From Catenovulum maritimum (GTDB lineage Bacteria > Pseudomonadota > Gammaproteobacteria > Enterobacterales > Alteromonadaceae): a DNA stretch of 64,000 nucleotides. Position 1 is the stretch's first letter. Every line of letters starts with the position of its first letter. Made by a program: the position numbers and the translations under genes. The notes beneath the pieces are model-generated. The model made no database searches and was not told where the DNA came from. It worked only from the letters and a program-made list of their open reading frames with translations. The stretch spans positions 62,001 through 126,000 of the forward strand of contig NZ_KQ130489.1 of assembly GCF_001050375.1 (NCBI RefSeq), written 5' to 3'. Shown in pieces: positions 11,464 to 64,000 of the stretch.

Positions 11464-12177
11464 ATGCCAACTCAACCTAACCCACGAAAAAAATCAAGTT
11501 CATTTAAACCAGCCAAACGCACGAGTAAAAGTGTGTTTGGTAGGCGTTCTAGCCAGTTGAATAAAACGGCCAAAACTCATTCTGAGACGAAAAAATTGAA
11601 TGAGGAAACTAAAGTAATTTTATTCAATAAACCCTATGATGTGTTAACTCAGTTTACCGATGATCAAAATCGGAAAACCCTAAAAGATTTTGTTGATGTG
11701 CCGAATGTATATGCGGCAGGTAGACTTGATAAAGATTCCGAAGGTTTACTTGTTCTGACCAATGATGGCCAGTTACAACACAAATTAGCTAATCCTGACA
11801 AAAAACAAGGCAAGACTTATTGGGTACAAGTAGAAGGCGAGTTTAGTCAAGACGCAAAGTATGAGTTAACTAAAGGTGTTAAGTTAAAAGATGGTTTAAC
11901 TAAACCGGCAAAAGTTGAAATATTACAGCCAGATCAAGTTGAATCTATCTGGGCTAGAGTTCCCCCTATTAGAGAGCGTAAAAATATACCAACAACTTGG
12001 ATTGCGTTAACAATTTTTGAAGGTAAAAACCGTCAAGTTAGACGCATGACAGCCCATGTTGGTTTTCCCACTTTAAGATTGATTCGAGTAAAAGTCAGTC
12101 AATTAAACTTAGGTGATTTAAAGCCGGGTGAGTACAAAGCCTTATCTAATGATGAAGTAGAAGAATTAAATAAATAG
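11464..12177 (+). CDS. rluE: 23S rRNA pseudouridine synthase RluE
   Basis: A 237-residue RsuA/RluE-family pseudouridine synthase. The catalytic Asp89 is in [19 protein letters not shown], followed by the RluE-type NPPIRERKxIPTxW-like stretch (here [13 protein letters not shown]) and [20 protein letters not shown]. RluE modifies U2457 of 23S rRNA in E. coli. The first 45 residues are a basic, low-complexity extension and there is no S4 domain, as in E. coli RluE. The gene starts the conserved block rluE-nudJ-mnmA-hflD-purB. Confidence 0.93.
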
Positions 12178-12188
12178 CTGAGATAAAT

Positions 12189-12635
12189 ATGTTTAAACCA
12201 AATACCACAGTCGCTTGTGTCGTCGTTTGCCAAGATAAATTTTTATTGGTTGAAGAAACAGAAGACGGCAAGCAGGTCTACAATCAGCCTGCAGGGCATC
12301 TAGAAGCCGATGAATCTTTATTGGATGCAGCGAAAAGGGAATTGTATGAAGAAACGGGTTTATCCTTAGATCCAGAGTATTTATTGGGTGTCTATCAAAG
12401 CCAAGTAAAAGACAAAGGTATTCAGTATCTGAGGTTTTGCTATGTGATTGAGTTAGACGGCGATTATCCAGAGACAAACCCACAAGATAGCGATATTACT
12501 GCAGCGCATTGGCTGACTTATAAAGAAATTGAAGCTAAGCAAGATCAATTGCGCAGCCCTATGGTTAAAATTTGTATTGATGATTATCGTCAAGGTTATG
12601 AATTACCGTTGGAAAGCGTTAAAACTTATTTTTAA
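12189..12635 (+). CDS. nudJ: Phosphatase NudJ (Nudix hydrolase)
   Basis: A 148-residue Nudix protein. It starts MFKPNTTVACVVV and continues with NQPAGHLEADESL, both nearly identical to E. coli NudJ. The Nudix box GHLEAD...RELYEETGL spans about residues 36-58. NudJ hydrolyses thiamine pyrimidine pyrophosphate (HMP-PP) and nucleoside di- and triphosphates. It lies 11 bases after rluE and just before mnmA, the same order as in E. coli, which supports the assignment beyond the motif. Confidence 0.92.
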   Translation: MFKPNTTVACVVVCQDKFLLVEETEDGKQVYNQPAGHLEADESLLDAAKRELYEETGLSLDPEYLLGVYQSQVKDKGIQYLRFCYVIELDGDYPETNPQDSDITAAHWLTYKEIEAKQDQLRSPMVKICIDDYRQGYELPLESVKTYF

Positions 12636-12729
12636 TCTTTATTTTCCGTTTGATTAGCCTGTATACCTAAGTTAAACAATGATAAAATGCTGCTCCATTT
12701 TATCTAGTTGCAAATTACAGGTTTATATA

Positions 12730-13845
12730 ATGTCAAATAACAGTGATAAAAAAGTCATTGTTGGTATGTCAGGTGGGGTTGATTCCTCAGTTTCTGCGTA
12801 CTTACTTCAACAACAAGGTTATCAAGTTGAAGGTTTGTTCATGAAGAACTGGGAAGAAGACGACACGGACGAATACTGTGCAGCCGCAGAAGATCTCAAA
12901 GATGCTCAAGCCGTTGCAGATAAACTTGGAGTAGAATTACACACAGTTAATTTCGCATCGGAATACTGGGACAATGTATTTGAATATTTTCTTGCCGAAT
13001 ATAAAGCTGGCCGCACACCAAACCCAGATATCATGTGCAACAAAGAAATCAAATTTAAAGCCTTCCTTGAATTTGCTGCAGAAGCTTTAGGTGCAGATTA
13101 CATAGCGACAGGCCATTATGTCCAACGCCGTATGATTACTGACGAAAACGGTCAAACTCATTGGCAAATGTTACGTGGCTTAGATAACAATAAAGACCAA
13201 AGCTACTTTTTGTACACTTTAGCAGAAGAGCATGTTGCGCAAACTTTATTTCCTGTTGGTGGTTTAGAAAAACCAGAAGTTCGAAAAATTGCAGAAGAGC
13301 AAGGTTTAGTGACTGCAGCTAAAAAAGATTCAACTGGCATTTGTTTTATCGGTGAACGTAAATTTAAAGACTTTTTACAACAGTATTTACCAGCTCAACC
13401 AGGTGACATTGAAACGCCAGAAGGCGAGGTTATCGGTAAACACGAAGGTTTAATGTATCACACATTAGGCCAACGCAAAGGTTTAGGTATCGGCGGATTA
13501 AAAGATGCGAGTGAAGAACCTTGGTACACGGTTGATAAAGATCTTGAACGTAATGTTTTAATTGTTGCTCAGGGCAAAAAGCACCCTAAATTATTCTCTG
13601 TTGGTATGATAGTTAATCAGTGTGATTGGGTTGATCGAGTCGGCCCAAGCAATGGTTTTAAATGCACAGTTAAAACTCGATATAGGCAAGCTGATATTAA
13701 ATGTCAGTTAGAAAAAATTGATGGCGATACTTTCAAAGTAGTGTTTGCCGAGCCTGTGTCTGCCGTAACACCGGGTCAGTCAGCTGTATTTTATCTTGAT
13801 GAAGTTTGTTTAGGCGGCGCAATTATAGATTCATTAATTAGGTAG
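12730..13845 (+). CDS. mnmA: tRNA-specific 2-thiouridylase MnmA
   Basis: A 371-residue enzyme that adds the 2-thio group to U34 of Lys, Glu and Gln tRNAs, using sulfur relayed by the Tus system. The PP-loop SGGVDSS is at residues 14-20, and the two catalytic cysteines are Cys103 (NPDIMCN) and Cys205 (STGICFIG). I chose ATG 12730 ([16 protein letters not shown]) because it matches the E. coli N-terminus; the frame is open to ATG 12679, but that would add 17 unlikely residues. hflD follows after six bases. Confidence 0.95.
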
Positions 13846-13851
13846 TATTGA

Positions 13852-15865
<2,014 letters not shown>

Positions 15866-15951
15866 TTTAAACCTGAATGGCAGGGAGTGTGTCGCGGCTG
15901 TTTAGTTTAAAGCCTTAGCTAACTTCCTAGCTTTATTTTGGGTTATATAAT

Positions 15952-15991
15952 AAAAAAGGATTAATGAGCTATGTTCATTAATCCTTTTTTT
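15952..15991 (+). terminator. Strong intrinsic terminator after purB
   Basis: A perfect 16-bp stem pairs 15952-15967 (AAAAAAGGATTAATGA) with 15975-15990 around a 7-base loop, ending in a T run. The A-tract before and T-tract after make it usable in both directions. It separates purB from the convergent small membrane protein gene at 16027. Confidence 0.9.
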
Positions 15992-16026
15992 ATTGATTTA
16001 ACTTTATATGGATTGTTATTCATAGA

Positions 16027-16170
16027 TTACTTTTGGTCGGCAGGTATATCATTGGCAATTTTTGTCATGAATAACCATACATAGTAACTACATAAGCCAA
16101 CGACAATTGTTAAACCAAATAAAGAACCCCATACGACTGGATCGGCTAATAACATTTCTAAGCTGCTCAT
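16027..16170 (-). CDS. 47-residue single-pass membrane protein (DUF3149-like)
   Basis: A short gene on the minus strand: MSSLEMLLADPVVWGS, one hydrophobic helix (about residues 13-35), then MTKIANDIPADQK. The ribosome binding site GCAGGAG lies seven bases before the ATG, as strong as any in the window, and supports real translation. A short acidic/hydrophobic start, the DPVVWGS turn and one helix resemble DUF3149, a family of tiny membrane proteins of unknown role; I hold this family call only moderately. A near-perfect FNR-type site sits 58 bases upstream, so the gene is probably switched on by low oxygen. Confidence 0.75.
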   Translation of the reverse strand: MSSLEMLLADPVVWGSLFGLTIVVGLCSYYVWLFMTKIANDIPADQK

Positions 16171-16227
16171 CTTTTTTCTCCTGCTTTATCTGTTAAATTA
16201 ACTTTAGGACAAGCTGAAAAATCGGAT

Positions 16228-16241
16228 ATGATTTAGATCAA
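16228..16241 (-). promoter_or_regulatory. FNR/EtrA-type operator
   Basis: Read on the minus strand, the site is TTGAT-CTAA-ATCAT, which matches the FNR consensus TTGAT-N4-ATCAA at 9 of 10 fixed positions. It is centred about 64 bases before the ATG of the 47-residue membrane protein, a distance that allows a class II position near -41 with a leader of about 20-25 bases. No other gene on this strand can use it. Confidence 0.7.
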
Positions 16242-16304
16242 GATCTGAATTGTGTAGTGAATGGATTAGGAAGAAGATTGATCTGGCGCAAACTTTGGGA
16301 CTGA

Positions 16305-16613
16305 TTATACTTTATTCAGGTTTTGCCATTGGTCTAAAAGTTTAGTGAGTGTCTTTTCTACATAATCATATTTACCTTCATTCACGCATGCATGTAAGTG
16401 AGAGTAAATTCGCGACAAATTAGTTGCAAGTTCTGGCCACTTGTCTTGATTAAGCGATTTATTTAGTAACCATAAAACTTTAATAACTCTGATTTGATCC
16501 TGATTTTTACAAGCTAACACACCAATTTGGTAAAGTTTTATTAGCCTTAATACAGGGGCTGAGGCTTGTAGTTGATTTGATGTATAGAGTTGAATGGGAT
16601 CGGATTGGCGCAA
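16305..16613 (-). CDS. FliS-like helical protein (orphan)
   Basis: A 102-residue, mostly helical protein. The segment ASAPVLRLIKLYQIGVLACKNQD followed by NLSRIYSHLHACVNEG and VEKTLTKLLDQWQNL follows the FliS pattern (SPHRLILMLYDGAL; NLxxLYxYMxxRLxEAN; ellxxLrdaW). FliS is the export chaperone that binds the flagellin C-terminal tail. Identity by eye is modest and no flagellar genes lie in the window, so this is a tentative call. Its upstream neighbour on the same strand ends in a flagellin-like tail, which adds weight. Confidence 0.5.
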   Translation of the reverse strand: MRQSDPIQLYTSNQLQASAPVLRLIKLYQIGVLACKNQDQIRVIKVLWLLNKSLNQDKWPELATNLSRIYSHLHACVNEGKYDYVEKTLTKLLDQWQNLNKV

Positions 16614-16664
16614 AAATGTATCCTTTTAAGCTTTCTATTTAACCCGAGTTCAGGTTATTTAATA

Positions 16665-16693
16665 AGTTAAACGCAGATTAACTGCGTTTAACT
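16665..16693. terminator. Hairpin between the two minus-strand genes
   Basis: AGTTAAACGCAG (16665-16676) pairs perfectly over 12 bp with CTGCGTTTAACT (16682-16693) around a 5-base loop. It begins about 11 bases after the stop of the Gln/Glu-rich protein on the minus strand. The T-tract is on the plus-strand side, so on the minus strand it may only attenuate or stabilise the transcript. Confidence 0.55.
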
Positions 16694-16704
16694 ATTATTG
16701 TTTT

Positions 16705-17052
16705 TTATAAGCCAAGTACTTCTTGTGCTGATTGATTTGCTTGAACTTCTTGTGCTAAAGAAGGCTGACTGGCAATTTGTTCCGCGGCTTGTTCAACCGC
16801 TCTGTCTGCTTCAGAGTCACTTTCAAATGATTGAGCTTGTAACTCAGGTGAAGTTGAAACTTGGGTATTTGCTTCAGCTGATTGAGTATTTACTTGAGCT
16901 TCTTCACTTGCTTGGGTTGACTCTGCTTGTTCTGTTTCTTGTGCATTCGATTCTTGAGTGGCTTGTAATTGCTGCTCTTGGCTTTCAAGTTGTTGTATCT
17001 CTTGTAAGCTGCTACCAATGCTTTCATTTGAGTAACCTATACCTTCAGGCAT
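16705..17052 (-). CDS. Gln/Glu/Ser-rich protein with flagellin-like C-terminal tail
   Basis: A 115-residue acidic, low-complexity protein (MPEGIGYSNESIGSSL, then Gln/Glu/Ser/Thr repeats), probably disordered. It has no signal peptide or membrane helix. The last 18 residues, SLAQEVQANQSAQEVLGL, resemble the flagellin D0 terminus (LAQANQxPQxVLxLL), the part that FliS binds. Upstream on the minus strand is AAGGAG close to the ATG. With the FliS-like gene downstream on the same strand this looks like a chaperone-client pair. Function unknown. Confidence 0.6.
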   Translation of the reverse strand: MPEGIGYSNESIGSSLQEIQQLESQEQQLQATQESNAQETEQAESTQASEEAQVNTQSAEANTQVSTSPELQAQSFESDSEADRAVEQAAEQIASQPSLAQEVQANQSAQEVLGL

Positions 17053-17470
17053 GATGCACTCCTTAATTAAAGTTTATATGGTTAAATTTTAGTCCTTAAC
17101 TAGGGTTAAAATAAAGGCTTAAATGCAAATAAAGTAGTAAAGTCTGGTTGGCATGTTCAAATTAATTGCCAGTTGGGATTAATTCTATCCCTTTGTGAAA
17201 TTATAGATTATTCAACCCAAGCCCGACAATAGATTTTCTTATTATCAAAAATAGTGAATCAAAAATAGTGCCATCTATCTCAAAAATTGCTCTAAAGCTT
17301 AGCATGATTACCCCTTAGTTTGAGCTTTTTAGATTTTAGCGGCTAGCGAGTTAGCTTCCTAGTTATGTAAGTAAATACATGAGATTTAATGAGTTTATTA
17401 TTAGATTTTATGCTTTTCTTAAACTAATATTTATAACAATTTGTCTGCCAAAGTTATTATAGTGACGCTA
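17053..17470. other. Divergent intergenic region with a 14-bp tandem repeat
   Basis: About 420 AT-rich bases with promoters expected on both sides. Two copies of ATCAAAAATAGTG stand at 17244-17256 and 17258-17270, one base apart, which could be a regulator site or replication slippage. No other gene or strong hairpin was seen. Confidence 0.5.
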
Positions 17471-18739
17471 ATGGAATTTAATAAAAATAAACGAAACCAT
17501 ATAAAGCAAATTTTACTCGGTTCTTTAGCCATTGGTGTCTACAGTAAAGCGCCTTATGTTTACGCTAAAAATAAGCAAAAGCTTAGGATACTTGGCACAC
17601 ATGTTACGTTACAAGAAGAGATACGTCAGCAAGCTATGGCTGATCTTGGGATTGAATTAGAGTTTGAAGCTAAGGGAAGTGCTTCGGTATTACAAAAAGC
17701 TTCAATGTCACCACAAACCTTTGATTTATATGAACAGTGGTCCAACAGCATTAACGTTTTATGGCGTTCCGGATCGATTCAAGCAATTGATAAAAATCGA
17801 ATTAAGAATTGGGGTGAAATCAATAATTTAGTTAAAACTGGTAAAGTATCTCAATCGGCAAAAATTGGTGCTGGTGATGCGCCATACAAAATACTCAATG
17901 TACAAGCAGATGGACACTTATCACCCCAAGAGACGGATCAAATTAGCTTTTTACCCTATGTTCATAATGTTGATTCATTTGGGTATAACACAAATGTCAT
18001 CCCTAAAGGTATTCCTTATCAAACGGAGAGTTGGGGCTGGTTATTGGATGATAAATATAAAGGTAAAGTCGGAATAGTAAATGCGCCGACAATTGGCTTG
18101 TTTGATTTAGCATTAGCTGCGCAAGCTAAAGGTTTGATGTCTTTTAATAATATTGGTGCAATTTCTAAACAAGAACTGGATCAATTATTTTCGATCTTAA
18201 CTGAGTTTAAACAGAACAAACATTTCAGTGGTTTTTGGACATCAGTGCCTGAATCTGTGCAATTTATGAGTAGCAATCGAGTTGTCATTGAAAGTATGTT
18301 TTCTCCTGCGGTTTCTGCATTAAATGGACAAAATGTTCCTGTTACTTATGCAGCGCCCAAAGAAGGTTATCGAGGTTGGCATGGCGTGATGTGCTTATCA
18401 TCTATGACCCAAGGAAAAGCAAAAGACGCAGCTTATGACTATATGAATTGGTGGTTAGATGGTTGGGCAGGGGCATTTATTGCTCGTCAAGGCTATTATA
18501 TTTCTAACCCTGAACGTTCAAAATCATTCTTAACCGAAGATGAATGGAATTATTGGTATTTAGGAAAAGCGGCACAAAACAACTTAAAAGGGACTGATGG
18601 AAATATTTCTGTGAAAGCTGGAGATATTAGAACTGGTGGCAGTTATGTTGAGCGGTTTAGTAATGTTGCTGTTTGGAATACAGTAATGCCGACGTATGAA
18701 TATAGTTTACAAAAATGGTATGAGTTTATTAGCGCTTAA
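17471..18739 (+). CDS. Extracellular solute-binding protein (family 1, PotD-like)
   Basis: A protein of about 422 residues with an N-terminal export signal (KNKRNHIKQILLGSLAIGVYS), whose KRNHIK resembles a weak Tat motif. The mature part has PotD/PotF-type features: LRILGTHVTLQEE, FLPYVHNVDSFGYNTN, a WGWLLDDKYKGKVGI segment, and the closing NWWLDGWAGAFIARQGYYISN. I chose ATG 17471; in-frame TTG 17441 and GTG 17462 are possible. There is no ABC transporter beside it. Its stop overlaps the start of a hybrid histidine kinase (TAATG), so it is probably the periplasmic ligand sensor of that kinase. The ligand is unknown, perhaps a polyamine or other amine. Confidence 0.8.
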   Translation: MEFNKNKRNHIKQILLGSLAIGVYSKAPYVYAKNKQKLRILGTHVTLQEEIRQQAMADLGIELEFEAKGSASVLQKASMSPQTFDLYEQWSNSINVLWRSGSIQAIDKNRIKNWGEINNLVKTGKVSQSAKIGAGDAPYKILNVQADGHLSPQETDQISFLPYVHNVDSFGYNTNVIPKGIPYQTESWGWLLDDKYKGKVGIVNAPTIGLFDLALAAQAKGLMSFNNIGAISKQELDQLFSILTEFKQNKHFSGFWTSVPESVQFMSSNRVVIESMFSPAVSALNGQNVPVTYAAPKEGYRGWHGVMCLSSMTQGKAKDAAYDYMNWWLDGWAGAFIARQGYYISNPERSKSFLTEDEWNYWYLGKAAQNNLKGTDGNISVKAGDIRTGGSYVERFSNVAVWNTVMPTYEYSLQKWYEFISA

Positions 18740-21456
18740 TGCTTATGTTTAATTCAATTAAAGCACAAATTATGCTAGTTGTGTGTGTGTTAACTAGTTT
18801 AACGATAGTGCAAATATATTTTTCCTATCAGTCTGAGCAGTCTTACACCTCTGGGATAGAAAATACTCAATCAACCATTAGCAAAATTGATCTCGTTAAA
18901 GATTTACAGCGAGAAGTAGTCGATCTACAACGCAATGTTCTCATATACAAGGATAATGGGAGTGAATCTGCACAATCTCGATTTAAGCAGATAGTGGAAT
19001 CTATTTCTACTAAATTAAGCCAATTAGCGAATGTCGAATCTGAGTATAAACTACCACAAGAACACTTAGATTATGTTTCTAGTATGCAGGGGCATTTAAA
19101 AGATTACCAAGAGAATTTCGAACAGGTTGTTTCAGGCAGAGAGCAAAGGGATACACTGTTTAAAGTTAAGATCCTCAATCAATTTAATGCTTTAATTAAT
19201 GAACTACCTACTGTGACAAATGATGAGAAACTAACTCAGATTAATCTAATTAAACTGAAATTATTATCTGCTGAAAATCAAGTGTTTCACTATGTCTTAG
19301 AAGCTGACTTTGCCAAAGTAAATGAATTTAATCTGTCGCTAAATGAATGCCTTACCTTAGTTAATTCGGCTCAGTTGGATAACACTGATTATGTTGTCAG
19401 TGCAATTAAAAATATTAAGATTGATTTTAACCGACTTACACAGATTACGCGGGGTTATGTATTTTTGATTAATGTCGTAATGACAGGCTCAGCTAATGAG
19501 TTTTTATATCTGACTAATGAACTTAATGAGTTAGTATCACAGCGGCAAGCTGAGATTAACCAACAAATCCAAACTCAGATTTCCAGTATTAGAAATAAAA
19601 ACATGCTACTTTCGGTTCTTTCAATTGTTATTACCATATTTATTGTTTTAATTTTGAGTTTGAGATTACTCATCCCGATAAACTCTATCAGCCATGTTTT
19701 CAGGAAGTTAGCTAAAGGTGAAACGGGCTTAGCGATACCTTCTAAAGAAAGACAAGATGAAATTGGTGAGTTAGCCCAAGCTGCGAGTGTATTCCAACAA
19801 ACTAACCTGCAAACTAAAGAGTTGTTGGAAAGTGCACAACATCAAAATAAGCTTCATGCCAAAATGAATGACGATTTAGCAGATGCGAAAGTTAAAGCAG
19901 AGCAAGCAACAGCGGCCAAAAGTATGTTTTTGGCTAACATGAGCCATGAAATAAGAACGCCTCTTAATGGGGTCGTAGGTTTAATAGATTTATGTTTAAA
20001 GTCTAAATTAAATGAAAAACAGCAAGAGTATTTATCTAAAGCTTTCTACTCTAGCCAAATTTTAATGAATGTGATTAATGATATTTTAGATTTTTCTAAA
20101 ATAGAAGCAGGAAAGCTTGATATCGAAGCGATAGAATTTGATTTTAACTTAATGCTTGAAAGCCTAATTTCAAATATTCAAATTAGAGCAAATGAAAAGA
20201 ACAATCGTTTAATTTTAGAAGTTTCTCCCCATGTTCCATTAAAAATGACTGGTGATCCAACACGAATTAGCCAAGTGATTTTAAACTTAGCTAACAATGC
20301 GATTAAGTTTACAGATTCTGGCTTGGTCAAAATTGTCATCAATACATCGCATGAAAATGGTGAAGATTTCTTAGTCGTTAAAGTGATTGATACTGGGATA
20401 GGCATGTCGCCAGAACAGTTAAGTCGGATTTTTGAATCTTTTACCCAAGCTGATGGCTCGACAAGTCGTAAATATGGTGGAACAGGTTTAGGGCTCAGTA
20501 TCGTTAAACAGTTAGTAAAATTAATGGGCGGGCACATAACTGCTAAAAGTGTAGAAAATGAAGGAACTGAATTTTGTGCAGATTTTAAACTATTGGCTAA
20601 ATCAAACACAACTCAAACCGATTTGTTTAACTTTGCACCTAATCAAATTTACTATTTTGCGGATAACAATCAGACTTTTATTCAAAAATCGCTATTAACA
20701 GATTATGGTTTTGGTTGTGACATTATGGCTTCAGCCGAGATTGCAGACTTTAGTAAATCAGCCATATCTTTAGCGACGGATAATGGTTTATCAGCTAATT
20801 TAGTCTTAATTGAATTAAGTTTAGATTCGGATATTAAATTTTTAGCAGACTTTGTGGTTAAGCTAAATAAACTGGGACTAACCTGTTTATTTTTATATGA
20901 AGATAATCAAGTTGGAAAATATTTTTCAACTGATTTAAAAGGGCTTGCAAAATTAAGCTTACCTTCCACGCCAGCTAATTTTATTAACAAGCTGAATTCA
21001 CTATCGCAAAATAGAGAGAAAAAATTAGATAGCGGAACAAAACACACTACAGCTGACTCAGCTAAGCCTAAATATAAGGGGAAGGTTTTATTAGTCGACG
21101 ATAATGAAATTAACTTGTTGGTTGCTTATGAGATTATGAATAGCTTTGGGGTTGAGATCGATATGGCAGAAGACGGTCAACAGGCGATAGATAAATACAA
21201 AGAGTACCGTAACTACGATATCATTTTTATGGATATTCAAATGCCCGTATTAGATGGTTATCAAGCAACCCAAGAAATTATCAAGATAGGTTGTAACGAA
21301 ACTAAAATCTGTGGTTTATCCGCTAATGCGATGAAAGAAGACTTAGATAAAGCCTTCTCTTTGGGAATGTCTGATTATATTAGCAAGCCGTTGCAAGTGA
21401 AGGACATAGAAAATGTACTTAAGAAGTATTTAATAAAAAATACTGAACCTGCTTAA
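18739..21456 (+). CDS. Hybrid sensor histidine kinase/response regulator
   Basis: A 905-residue inner membrane kinase. Order: membrane helix at about residues 8-28; helical periplasmic domain (30-285); second helix (289-312); HAMP; HisKA with His403 in MSHEIRTPLNG; HATPase with NLANNAIKF, DTGIGM and GGTGLGLSI; a receiver-like region at 630-750 with no clear acceptor Asp; and a true receiver at 782-900 (Asp787/788, acceptor Asp832 in FMDIQMP, Lys883). No Hpt domain is seen, so an external phosphotransfer protein is likely. It overlaps the solute-binding protein by one base, suggesting a binding-protein-assisted sensor comparable in plan to TorT-TorS or LuxP-LuxQ. Confidence 0.92.
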   Translation: MLMFNSIKAQIMLVVCVLTSLTIVQIYFSYQSEQSYTSGIENTQSTISKIDLVKDLQREVVDLQRNVLIYKDNGSESAQSRFKQIVESISTKLSQLANVESEYKLPQEHLDYVSSMQGHLKDYQENFEQVVSGREQRDTLFKVKILNQFNALINELPTVTNDEKLTQINLIKLKLLSAENQVFHYVLEADFAKVNEFNLSLNECLTLVNSAQLDNTDYVVSAIKNIKIDFNRLTQITRGYVFLINVVMTGSANEFLYLTNELNELVSQRQAEINQQIQTQISSIRNKNMLLSVLSIVITIFIVLILSLRLLIPINSISHVFRKLAKGETGLAIPSKERQDEIGELAQAASVFQQTNLQTKELLESAQHQNKLHAKMNDDLADAKVKAEQATAAKSMFLANMSHEIRTPLNGVVGLIDLCLKSKLNEKQQEYLSKAFYSSQILMNVINDILDFSKIEAGKLDIEAIEFDFNLMLESLISNIQIRANEKNNRLILEVSPHVPLKMTGDPTRISQVILNLANNAIKFTDSGLVKIVINTSHENGEDFLVVKVIDTGIGMSPEQLSRIFESFTQADGSTSRKYGGTGLGLSIVKQLVKLMGGHITAKSVENEGTEFCADFKLLAKSNTTQTDLFNFAPNQIYYFADNNQTFIQKSLLTDYGFGCDIMASAEIADFSKSAISLATDNGLSANLVLIELSLDSDIKFLADFVVKLNKLGLTCLFLYEDNQVGKYFSTDLKGLAKLSLPSTPANFINKLNSLSQNREKKLDSGTKHTTADSAKPKYKGKVLLVDDNEINLLVAYEIMNSFGVEIDMAEDGQQAIDKYKEYRNYDIIFMDIQMPVLDGYQATQEIIKIGCNETKICGLSANAMKEDLDKAFSLGMSDYISKPLQVKDIENVLKKYLIKNTEPA

Positions 21457-21481
21457 AGGTAAGCGTGATTTTAAGCAGGTT
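21446..21481. terminator. Hairpin between convergent genes
   Basis: AACCTGCTTAAA (21446-21457) pairs perfectly over 12 bp with 21470-21481 around a 12-base loop. It covers the stop codons of the hybrid kinase and of the convergent Nudix gene. There is no T-tract, so it may slow or protect both transcripts more than terminate them. Confidence 0.5.
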
Positions 21482-22007
21482 GGCAGACTAATTCTTGTGC
21501 TATTTTTTCAAGCAAAAAAGTTTCTCGTTCAATCGATAAACCTTTTTTGTTACTTCTGGCTATAGTTTCTTGATTGTGTTTAATTGCATCATATAAATTA
21601 ATCCAAACGGGTTCCATGCCGTTTCTTGTCTCGTAATCTTCGTATTGTGTTGCAGTAAACTCTTCATCAATTGAACATAGATAACAATAAGAAATCATGT
21701 GCATGACATTATGTTCGCCTTTATACCAAGGTCTGAATTCTTCGTAGATACCAAATTCTTGAATATCTTTAATATTTTGCGCGCCAGTTTCTTCTTTAAG
21801 TTCACGTTTAAAGCCTTGAACAATAGTTTCACCTTCGTCAATACCACCACCTGGAAGTGTGTAGTCATCATACCTTTTGGTATACAGCATTAGGATTTTT
21901 TCTTGTTTTAAAACAATTGCTCTTGTGGCTTTACGTGTAAACTGCTTAATGTCAGAACTTTGAAGTTTTAAAACATCTGGATGTGTAGCTTTTCTTAAAA
22001 GGCGCAT
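21471..22007 (-). CDS. Nudix hydrolase
   Basis: A 178-residue protein with a complete Nudix box, GGIDEGETIVQGFKRELKEETG, at about residues 54-75. The N-terminal 25 residues are outside the fold. The box predicts hydrolysis of a nucleoside diphosphate linked to another moiety; the substrate cannot be read. The nearby YDDYTLPGGGIDEGE wording is common in the MutT-like/ADP-ribose group. It lies 15 bases after the DUF3301 gene and may belong to that transcription unit. Confidence 0.85.
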   Translation of the reverse strand: MRLLRKATHPDVLKLQSSDIKQFTRKATRAIVLKQEKILMLYTKRYDDYTLPGGGIDEGETIVQGFKRELKEETGAQNIKDIQEFGIYEEFRPWYKGEHNVMHMISYCYLCSIDEEFTATQYEDYETRNGMEPVWINLYDAIKHNQETIARSNKKGLSIERETFLLEKIAQELVCQPA

Positions 22008-61511: not shown

Positions 61512-64000
61512 ATGCAACAAGGCTCCATGAAGGCTTGGCTTGAGTCATCTCAGCTTGCCGGTGGCAATGCAACATACATTGAAGAATTATACGAACAGTA
61601 TCTCGATAATCCATTAAGCGTCAGTGATGAGTGGCGTGGATTGTTTGAAAGTTTACCTAAAGTTGAAGGTGTGACGGTTGAAACCAAACACTCTTTAGTT
61701 CGAGATACATTTAGAGAATCCGCTAAGAACATACATAGAAATCAAGTTGTTGTTCCAACTGATATTTCAGATACTAAGCAAGTTAAAGTTTTACAGCTTA
61801 TTAATGCTTATCGTTTCAGAGGTCATCAGCATGCTAATCTTGATCCGCTAGGTTTATGGAAACAAGAAAGAGTTCGTGATTTAGAATTAAGTCACCATGA
61901 ATTGGATAATGACGATTTAGACAAAACCTTTAATGTTGGTTCTTTTGCCGTTGGCGAAGAGAAAATGCAACTTAAAGATATCCATAGTGCACTCGTTAAA
62001 ACCTATTGTGGTTCTGTCGGTGCGGAATATATGTATATTACGTCTACTGAAGAGAAACGTTGGTTACAGCAGAGATTAGAATCTGTTCAATGTAAGCCTG
62101 ATATTTCTACTGAACAAAAATTAAAACTATATAAAGAGCTTGTTGCTGCAGATGGCCTTGAAAAGTACTTAGCCAGTAAATTCCCTGGTGCTAAACGCTT
62201 TTCTTTAGAAGGCGGTGACGCTTTAGTTCCTTTGTTAAAAGGTTTGATCAGTCAAGCCGGTGAACAAGGTCAAAAAGAAGTTGTTATTGGTATGGCTCAC
62301 CGTGGACGTCTAAACGTTCTGGTTAACGTACTAGGTAAAAACCCTTCAATCTTATTCGATGAGTTTTCTGGTAAACATGATCATGACACCAATTTAGGTT
62401 CAGGTGATGTTAAATACCACATGGGTTATTCATCAGATTTCGCGACCGAAGGTGGTAATGTCCATTTAGCATTAGCCTTTAACCCTTCTCACTTAGAAAT
62501 CGTAAATCCTGTTGTTATGGGCTCTGTAAGAGCACGTATGGATCGCCGTGGTTGTGCTGATGGTTCACTTGCTTTACCGATTACTATCCATGGTGATTCT
62601 GCAATCGCTGGTCAAGGTGTTGTACAAGAAACATTTAACTTATCACAAACAAGAGCATACTCTGTTGGTGGTACGGTACGAGTTGTAGTTAACAACCAAG
62701 TTGGTTTTACAACATCTAACCCGCAAGATACTCGTTCAACTCAATATTGTACTGATATTGCGAAAATGGTTCAGGCACCAATATTCCATGTGAATTCGGA
62801 TGACCCAGAAGCTGTTTTATTCGCAACTAAAGTTGCATTAGAGTACAGAAATAAATTTAAACGCGACGTGGTTATCGATTTAGTTTGTTACCGCAGACAC
62901 GGACATAATGAAGCTGATGAGCCAAATGCAACACAGCCTCTTATGTATCAAAAAATTAAAAAACACCCAGTTCCTAGAGCACTATATGCTCAGCAATTAA
63001 TTTCGGAAGGGGTTATATCCGAGCAAGATGCAAATCGTGTGATTGAAGAATACCGAGCTGCTCTTGATCATGGTGCCTGCGTAGTAGAAGAATGGCGTCC
63101 TATGATGGAGCATTCAGTAGATTGGCGTCCTTATTTAAACCATGATTGGGATATTGCTTATGATGCCTCAATTCAAATTGATAAGTTAAAAGCATTAGCT
63201 GTAAAAGCTAGTGAATACCCTGCAGATGTAGTGCCTCAATCACGTGTTAAAAAGATTTATCAAGATCGTAAACTGATGGCGTCAGGTGAGAAAGCGTTAG
63301 ATTGGGGTTTTGCTGAAACTTTAGCATATGCTGATTTATCAACTTCAGGTGTGCGTTTAAGAATTACAGGTCAAGATTGCGGACGTGGTACTTTCTTCCA
63401 CCGTCATGCGGTTATTCATAACCAAAAAGACGCATCTACCTATATGCCGCTGCAGAATTTAGCTGAAGAGCAACCACCAGTTGAAATCTATGATTCAGTT
63501 TTATCTGAAGAAGCTGTATTGGCGTTTGAATATGGTTATGCAACAGCAGAGCCTAAAACATTAACTATTTGGGAAGCCCAATTTGGTGACTTCGCGAATG
63601 GTGCTCAAGTTGTTATTGATCAGTTCTTAAGTTCTGGTGAACAAAAATGGGGCCGTTTATGTGGATTAACTTTGTTACTACCACATGGTTATGAAGGTCA
63701 AGGTCCAGAGCATTCTTCAGCTCGTTTAGAAAGATTCTTACAATTATGTGCTGACCATAATATGCAGGTTTGTGTACCTTCAACGCCAGCACAAGTGTTT
63801 AATATGATTAGAAGACAATCGATTAGACCTATGCGTAGACCGCTTGTGGTTATGTCACCTAAGTCATTATTACGTCACCCATTAGCAACTTCTACATTAG
63901 AAGATTTAGCTGAAGGTGTATTCCACAATGTAATTGATGAAATTGATGAAATTGATTCAGCTAAAGTTGATAGAGTTGTATTTTGTAGTGGTAAAGTTTA
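61512..64000 (+). CDS. sucA: 2-oxoglutarate dehydrogenase E1 component (3' end outside window)
   Basis: The frame runs from ATG 61512 to the window edge, about 829 of an expected 940 residues. It starts MQQGSMKAWLESSQLAGGNA with YIEELYEQYLDNPLSVSDEWR, the E2-binding part. The thiamine diphosphate domain has GMAHRGRLNVLVNVLGK and the central RRHGHNEADEP; the second domain starts at WGFAETLAYA. GGGTAAAACG precedes the start. It belongs to sdhCDAB-sucA, and sucB should follow. Confidence 0.96.
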   Translation, partial: MQQGSMKAWLESSQLAGGNATYIEELYEQYLDNPLSVSDEWRGLFESLPKVEGVTVETKHSLVRDTFRESAKNIHRNQVVVPTDISDTKQVKVLQLINAYRFRGHQHANLDPLGLWKQERVRDLELSHHELDNDDLDKTFNVGSFAVGEEKMQLKDIHSALVKTYCGSVGAEYMYITSTEEKRWLQQRLESVQCKPDISTEQKLKLYKELVAADGLEKYLASKFPGAKRFSLEGGDALVPLLKGLISQAGEQGQKEVVIGMAHRGRLNVLVNVLGKNPSILFDEFSGKHDHDTNLGSGDVKYHMGYSSDFATEGGNVHLALAFNPSHLEIVNPVVMGSVRARMDRRGCADGSLALPITIHGDSAIAGQGVVQETFNLSQTRAYSVGGTVRVVVNNQVGFTTSNPQDTRSTQYCTDIAKMVQAPIFHVNSDDPEAVLFATKVALEYRNKFKRDVVIDLVCYRRHGHNEADEPNATQPLMYQKIKKHPVPRALYAQQLISEGVISEQDANRVIEEYRAALDHGACVVEEWRPMMEHSVDWRPYLNHDWDIAYDASIQIDKLKALAVKASEYPADVVPQSRVKKIYQDRKLMASGEKALDWGFAETLAYADLSTSGVRLRITGQDCGRGTFFHRHAVIHNQKDASTYMPLQNLAEEQPPVEIYDSVLSEEAVLAFEYGYATAEPKTLTIWEAQFGDFANGAQVVIDQFLSSGEQKWGRLCGLTLLLPHGYEGQGPEHSSARLERFLQLCADHNMQVCVPSTPAQVFNMIRRQSIRPMRRPLVVMSPKSLLRHPLATSTLEDLAEGVFHNVIDEIDEIDSAKVDRVVFCSGKV

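Follow-up and report, generated by a model that had tools for sequence, protein, structure and literature searches.

A FliS-like protein and a neighbour with a flagellin-like tail are encoded away from flagellar genes in Catenovulum and relatives

FliS is usually described as a flagellin chaperone. What, then, is the role of a FliS-like gene in Catenovulum maritimum that stands beside a gene for a short acidic protein ending like a flagellin? Both genes lie in the window (the whole stretch of 64,000 nucleotides that was analysed, positions 62,001 to 126,000 of contig NZ_KQ130489.1) and are adjacent on the minus strand, as the preliminary description had reported. The upstream gene (16705-17052, minus strand) encodes the acidic protein of 115 amino acids, which ends SLAQEVQANQSAQEVLGL. 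The FliS-like gene (16305-16613, minus strand) encodes 102 amino acids from a TTG start with AAGGA, identified by eye, seven bases 5′ of it; 91 bases separate the two genes. The reading that we favour, to which we give just short of an even chance, is that a FliS paralogue acts as a lineage-specific export chaperone for one dedicated client, a disordered protein with a flagellin-like tail.

The FliS resemblance claimed for the 102-aa protein was borne out by profile matches and by FliS folds in Foldseek. The Pfam FliS profile (PF02561) matched at E 4.4e-5 with a score of 24.2 bits, just under the curated cut-off of 26.7, and TIGR00208 matched at E 4.8e-4 with 20.2 bits (cut-off 53.75). Seven of the eight family members scanned, the window protein included, match Pfam FliS with E-values of 0.1 or lower, the lowest being 1.7e-7. 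When a profile of the seven orphan FliS-like proteins was compared with PDB sequences, four were found at E 1 or below, all of them FliS (1ory, E 0.0011); in the order search the same profile also recovered an ordinary fliS (L028, E 2.1e-11) beside an ORF that is fliD-like by eye. Modelled alone by AF2 from a four-row alignment, the protein is helical (pLDDT 77.3, pTM 0.63, residues 1-16 below 50), and the nine best Foldseek matches of this model are all FliS, with weak E-values (0.034-0.31; probability 0.93-1.00, TMq 0.40-0.66); none of the 432 matches was at E 0.001 or below. Profile-profile comparison of the orphans with canonical FliS by hhalign was also weak (probability 3.8, E 0.011; shallow alignments).

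The FliS-like protein is about 40 residues shorter than the FliS of its own genome (102 vs 143). In an alignment of the orphans with the canonical FliS of 11 genomes, and with gaps as placed by the aligner, the orphans are missing about 15 residues in the helix 2/3 region, about 7 from the stretch that links the last two long helices, and the greater part of the canonical C-terminal extension. The first 19 residues (16557-16613, minus strand) contain Tyr10, in the place of the FlhA-contacting tyrosine of FliS. This residue is invariant in all seven orphans and aligns with a tyrosine of all 11 canonical FliS proteins; its region was aligned with AEAYFQNQ of Aquifex FliS. Tyr10 of Salmonella FliS and Tyr7/Tyr10 of the Bacillus subtilis protein matter for FlhA recognition, according to the available text of PMC6070490 and PMC8527033. 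Judged by its sequence, the 102-aa gene encodes a FliS paralogue that has diverged and become shorter, and both the profile and fold matches and the invariant tyrosine support its reading as a chaperone with a dedicated client.

The acidic, low-complexity character first noted for the 115-aa protein is plain from its composition, with a net charge of -20 and 65% Q+E+S+A, which suggests that the protein is probably mostly disordered. The orthologues share little in the middle and keep the C-terminus. No flagellin match was found in Pfam, either for the window protein at E up to 10 or for the seven orthologues at E up to 0.1. We also considered a minimal or degenerate flagellin as a full description and rejected it, as the acidic N-termini were not clearly above shuffles against either flagellin class: between 94 (L048, the lowest) and 1316 of 2000 shuffles reached the score, the latter for the window protein against the divergent class. 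As far as its sequence goes, the acidic protein falls outside the flagellins and would share with them only a D0-C-like tail, set on an acidic, probably disordered body.

This tail, the last 25 residues plus the stop (16705-16782, minus strand), had been called flagellin-like in the preliminary description, and the statistical tests agree, most clearly for the window protein and its close orthologues. When 16 residues of each acidic tail were compared with ordinary flagellin tails from this genus and closely related ones, the score was reached by 23 (window), 44 (L004), 13 (L005) and 10 (L006) of 2000 shuffles, and by 108 (L021), 390 (L007) and 660 (L020) for the divergent orthologues; the tails of L020 and L021 were outscored by an internal segment of the protein. 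Local alignment of the last 45 residues gave, in the tail register, 0 (window), 5 (L004), 21 (L005) and 7 (L021) of 1000 shuffles, out of that register 3 (L006) and 10 (L020), and 425 for L007. A 25-column permutation against flagellin tails from this genus and closely related ones (shifts of 3 allowed), whose 25-residue block was fixed after the 45-residue result had been seen, was reached in 2 of 20000 permutations for the window, 6 for the four main congeners, 12 for all seven orthologues weighted and 51 for the three divergent orthologues jointly (singly 35 for L021, 341 for L020 and 2188 for L007). By hhalign the acidic and ordinary flagellin tails gave only a weak match (probability 4.7, E 0.0086; shallow alignments).

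The least biased test of the tail is a search of 295 whole family genomes with a profile of the seven tails. It returned 21 rows, namely the seven orthologues and 14 others, 11 of which (L099-L109, all from genus g19) are C-termini of a divergent flagellin of 265-285 residues; of the rest, L111 is flagellin-like and matched at profile positions 4-27 only, and L110 and L112 are unrelated. The same profile over 394 order genomes, a set overlapping the family set, returned two orthologues, two of the same g19 flagellins and L112. In a column-shuffle control on 47 flagellin ORFs, 11 of which had been picked by the tail-profile search itself, the real profile reached 23.2 bits, and the best of 300 shuffled profiles reached 11.6 bits over all 47 ORFs. 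For the 36 flagellin ORFs not so picked, the real best was 9.2 bits (shuffle 95th percentile, 7.1).

Could a Q/A/S-rich protein have come by such a likeness through chance, with the FliS-like gene being an unpaired orphan paralogue? Its biased composition would allow this, as would the 16-residue results, which lack significance for L007 and L020 and are marginal for L021. The 11 matched flagellins come from one genus and thus count as one independent event, and outside the tail search the profile best was low. We consider chance very improbable, given that no shuffled profile came near 23.2 bits, the joint result for the three divergent orthologues, and the agreement of two independent profiles on the same seven genomes (below).

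Over the last 12 residues, the window protein is identical to five g19 flagellin tails at 8-10 positions, and to the ordinary and divergent (L013) flagellins of its own genome at 7 and 5. When query residues 4-53 are paired with chain residues 254-303 of B. subtilis flagellin, positions 297, 299 and 300 are Q, V and L in the window tail; in the orthologues they are Q/I/L (L046), Q/V/V (L047 and L048), E/V/V (L020), E/V/L (L021) and N/L/A (L007). Changes at these three positions of B. subtilis flagellin harmed filament formation, and the authors tie the residues to FlhA recognition (available text of PMC6070490). The flagellin tail as found by the whole-genome profile, with Q, V and L at these positions, supports the reading of the acidic protein as a dedicated client.

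The divergent short flagellins (about 265-285 aa) form a class of their own, comprising L099-L109 and a gene of the window's genome at C1:466229 (L013, 928-1734). The two members scanned, L099 and L013, both have Flagellin_N and Flagellin_C; the g19 tails end like QANQSAxxVLGLL, and the short flagellins in L099, L100 and L081 adjoin a regulator that by eye resembles a sigma-54 activator. Separately, a long, partly masked array lies between flagellin genes at about 223.3-224.5 kb of contig C2 of the window's genome (L009 and L011); all of its reading frames translate to one and the same repeat of seven residues, so its unit is probably 7 bases.

Conservation of the two genes as neighbours, expected at the outset, was found in seven genomes. 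The FliS-like profile matched 12 of the 295 family genomes; in seven of these, the window's own included, the acidic gene lies immediately upstream (five in genus g1, the window's genus, plus G066 and G080), and the tail profile places the acidic gene in the same seven. Genus g18 contributed four weak matches that are probably ordinary fliS; the one that was read (L023) stands after a fliD-like ORF. The remaining match, an orphan of another genus (G029; L008, 1474-1743), has 89 aa and 27.4 bits, over the Pfam FliS cut-off, and has neither an acidic partner nor a flagellar neighbour in the stretch read. In wider searches for distant relatives, FliS-like genes were found only in G000 (the window's genome) and G002, apart from the ordinary fliS L028, among the 394 order genomes, and only in G000 among 369 class genomes.

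Five of the eight g1 genomes, which include Catenovulum sediminis WS1-A (G003) and C. agarivorans YM01 and DS-2 (G004 and G006), have both genes. The other three (G001, G005 and G007) have neither, and at the site of the pair they show the HAD gene, a short gap and then the DUF3149 gene. Two other genera have the pair at this same site, which makes loss in this group appear the simpler history. The three congeners also have FliS and flagellins, which led us to reject a link of the pair to possession of a flagellum; canonical FliS was present in all 11 genomes checked, and flagellins too. Both genes are conserved at the protein level: between the two C. agarivorans records, the one pair compared, the acidic gene has dN 0.12 and dS 2.2 (near saturation), and the FliS-like gene has dN 0.21, with 41 differences at codon positions 1+2 vs 63 at position 3. 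Joint presence in 7 of 295 genomes with joint absence from three congeners, and this conservation, both support the reading as chaperone and dedicated client.

The pair is not encoded with fliD or flagellin, and no flagellar genes were seen beside it in the stretches read (12000-22000 of the window; seven loci). Its neighbours are genes for DUF3149, a HAD hydrolase and UPF0231 (by Pfam) and purB (by eye). In the same genome, the pair lies on contig C8, canonical fliS on C2 after an ORF that is fliD-like by eye, and the flagellins on C2 and C1. The fixed downstream neighbour is the DUF3149 gene (16027-16170, minus strand; 47 aa, one membrane segment by eye; PF11346 at E 4.6e-6, above cut-off), which follows the pair in all seven loci read although the upstream flanks have changed; in L020 an opposite-strand isomerase-like ORF intervenes. 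The HAD gene is upstream in five of the seven loci and absent there in the window and L007. HAD was identified by Pfam in L046, L020 and L021 and DUF3149 in the window and L047, the remaining loci being assigned by eye.

These surroundings are what would be expected of a repurposed cytosolic module in which the pair binds through the old FliS-flagellin interface for a non-flagellar role, perhaps with DUF3149 and without export: the neighbours are non-flagellar, and DUF3149 persists where HAD is missing. We regard such a module as rather improbable. DUF3149 also occurs in 16 of 20 probed genomes without the pair (10 over cut-off), and the FlhA-contact tyrosine is invariant even though identity between the orphans and the window protein is no more than 28-41%.

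We scored the upstream regions for a sigma-28-type site with the consensus TAAAG-N14-GCCGATA. Twelve flagellin upstream stretches, representing about 10 distinct genes (two seen twice), scored 10-12 of 12, and 11 of them have TAAAG-N14-nCCGATA. Upstream of the acidic gene the best score with this consensus was 8-9 of 12 in all seven loci, against shuffle means of 8.2-8.7. The nearest candidate, TAAAG-N13-TCGAATA, lies 22 bases before the start in L046 and scores 9 of 12 vs a shuffle mean of 8.7, and sigma-28 control was rejected. Sigma-54 control was likewise rejected: TGGCA-like matches occur about 120 bases upstream in three loci, where the -12 GC is missing, and those of L046 overlap the HAD stop. 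Some acidic genes have a TATAAT-like -10 upstream.

The missing sigma-28 site counts against the dedicated-client reading. It would also suit the cytosolic module, argues more than anything else against a simple filament-type substrate and leaves room for a competitor, which is the main rival. The acidic tail would occupy canonical FliS or FlhA, gating flagellin export or FliS-FlgM traffic, and the FliS-like protein would titrate the acidic protein. A target exists, since canonical FliS and flagellins accompany the pair, and there are precedents in HP1076, a non-flagellin FliS partner that shares its docking site with flagellin (available text of PMC7248283), and in the binding of FlgM by FliS (available text of PMC8527033). 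We nevertheless hold this role to be less likely than the dedicated pair, because the three of eight congeners that keep FliS and flagellins without the pair make it dispensable at genus level, and because a decoy would not by itself call for a second chaperone that binds the tail.

The reading proposed in the preliminary description stood in part, namely in FliS homology, a flagellin-type tail and neighbour conservation in seven genomes. In the mechanism that we favour, the FliS-like protein, though shortened, would keep a FliS-type helical bundle and the N-terminal FlhA-contact tyrosine; it most likely holds the flagellin-like tail of the acidic protein and most likely brings it to FlhA in the usual export machinery of the flagellum, through which the acidic protein may be exported to whatever role it may have afterwards. 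We infer tail binding and receipt of the complex by FlhA from features that each of the partners has retained. Other evidence counts against this mechanism. In a tandem AF2 read-through of the L048 pair (stop as glycine; six rows, no positive control; pLDDT 58.1, pTM 0.37), the tail was not confidently docked: residues 78-120, among which most of the tail falls (tail residues 78-97), are below pLDDT 50. In L007 (G002) the FliS-like gene is intact, but the acidic orthologue next to it (1803-1955) has no more than 50 aa and its tail, QANLTANDLAAG, is poor; this orthologue may be a client in decay or a minimal one. The weak profile-profile comparisons likewise count against it. It is quite possible, if short of probable, that this is a second, self-contained client-chaperone pair in which a disordered acidic protein is secreted through the flagellar export gate, with only the flagellin tail borrowed as an address label.

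Our data suggest that some Catenovulum-group marine bacteria encode, away from flagellar genes, a spare export chaperone that serves a non-flagellin client of its own. If this is true, the D0-C tail would be a portable export address, the pair a minimal natural system for FliS-client-FlhA recognition without filament assembly, and the acidic protein a secreted or regulatory protein of marine gammaproteobacteria that has so far been overlooked. Our literature search found no paper treating both Catenovulum and FliS, and none joining FliS, flagellin-like, orphan, chaperone and FlhA. Like the FliS-flagellin pair, this one would combine a helical-bundle chaperone that has a conserved N-terminal tyrosine with a partner that has a D0-C-like tail; unlike it, the chaperone is about 40 residues shorter, the partner has no Pfam flagellin domain and no sigma-28 site, and in the stretches read the genes have no flagellar neighbours. 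The divergent short flagellins of g19 (L099-L109) and of the window's genome (L013) have similar tails, but they are full flagellins. HP1076 of Helicobacter pylori is similarly a lineage-restricted non-flagellin protein and binds FliS at the flagellin docking site; unlike the acidic protein, it is a helix-rich, membrane-associated bundle, and the available text of PMC7248283 mentions no flagellin-like tail and no second FliS. The contact of Salmonella FliS with FlgM likewise involves the handling of a small non-flagellin protein by FliS, but FlgM, with which the acidic protein was compared by Pfam scans alone, is an anti-sigma factor (available text of PMC8527033).
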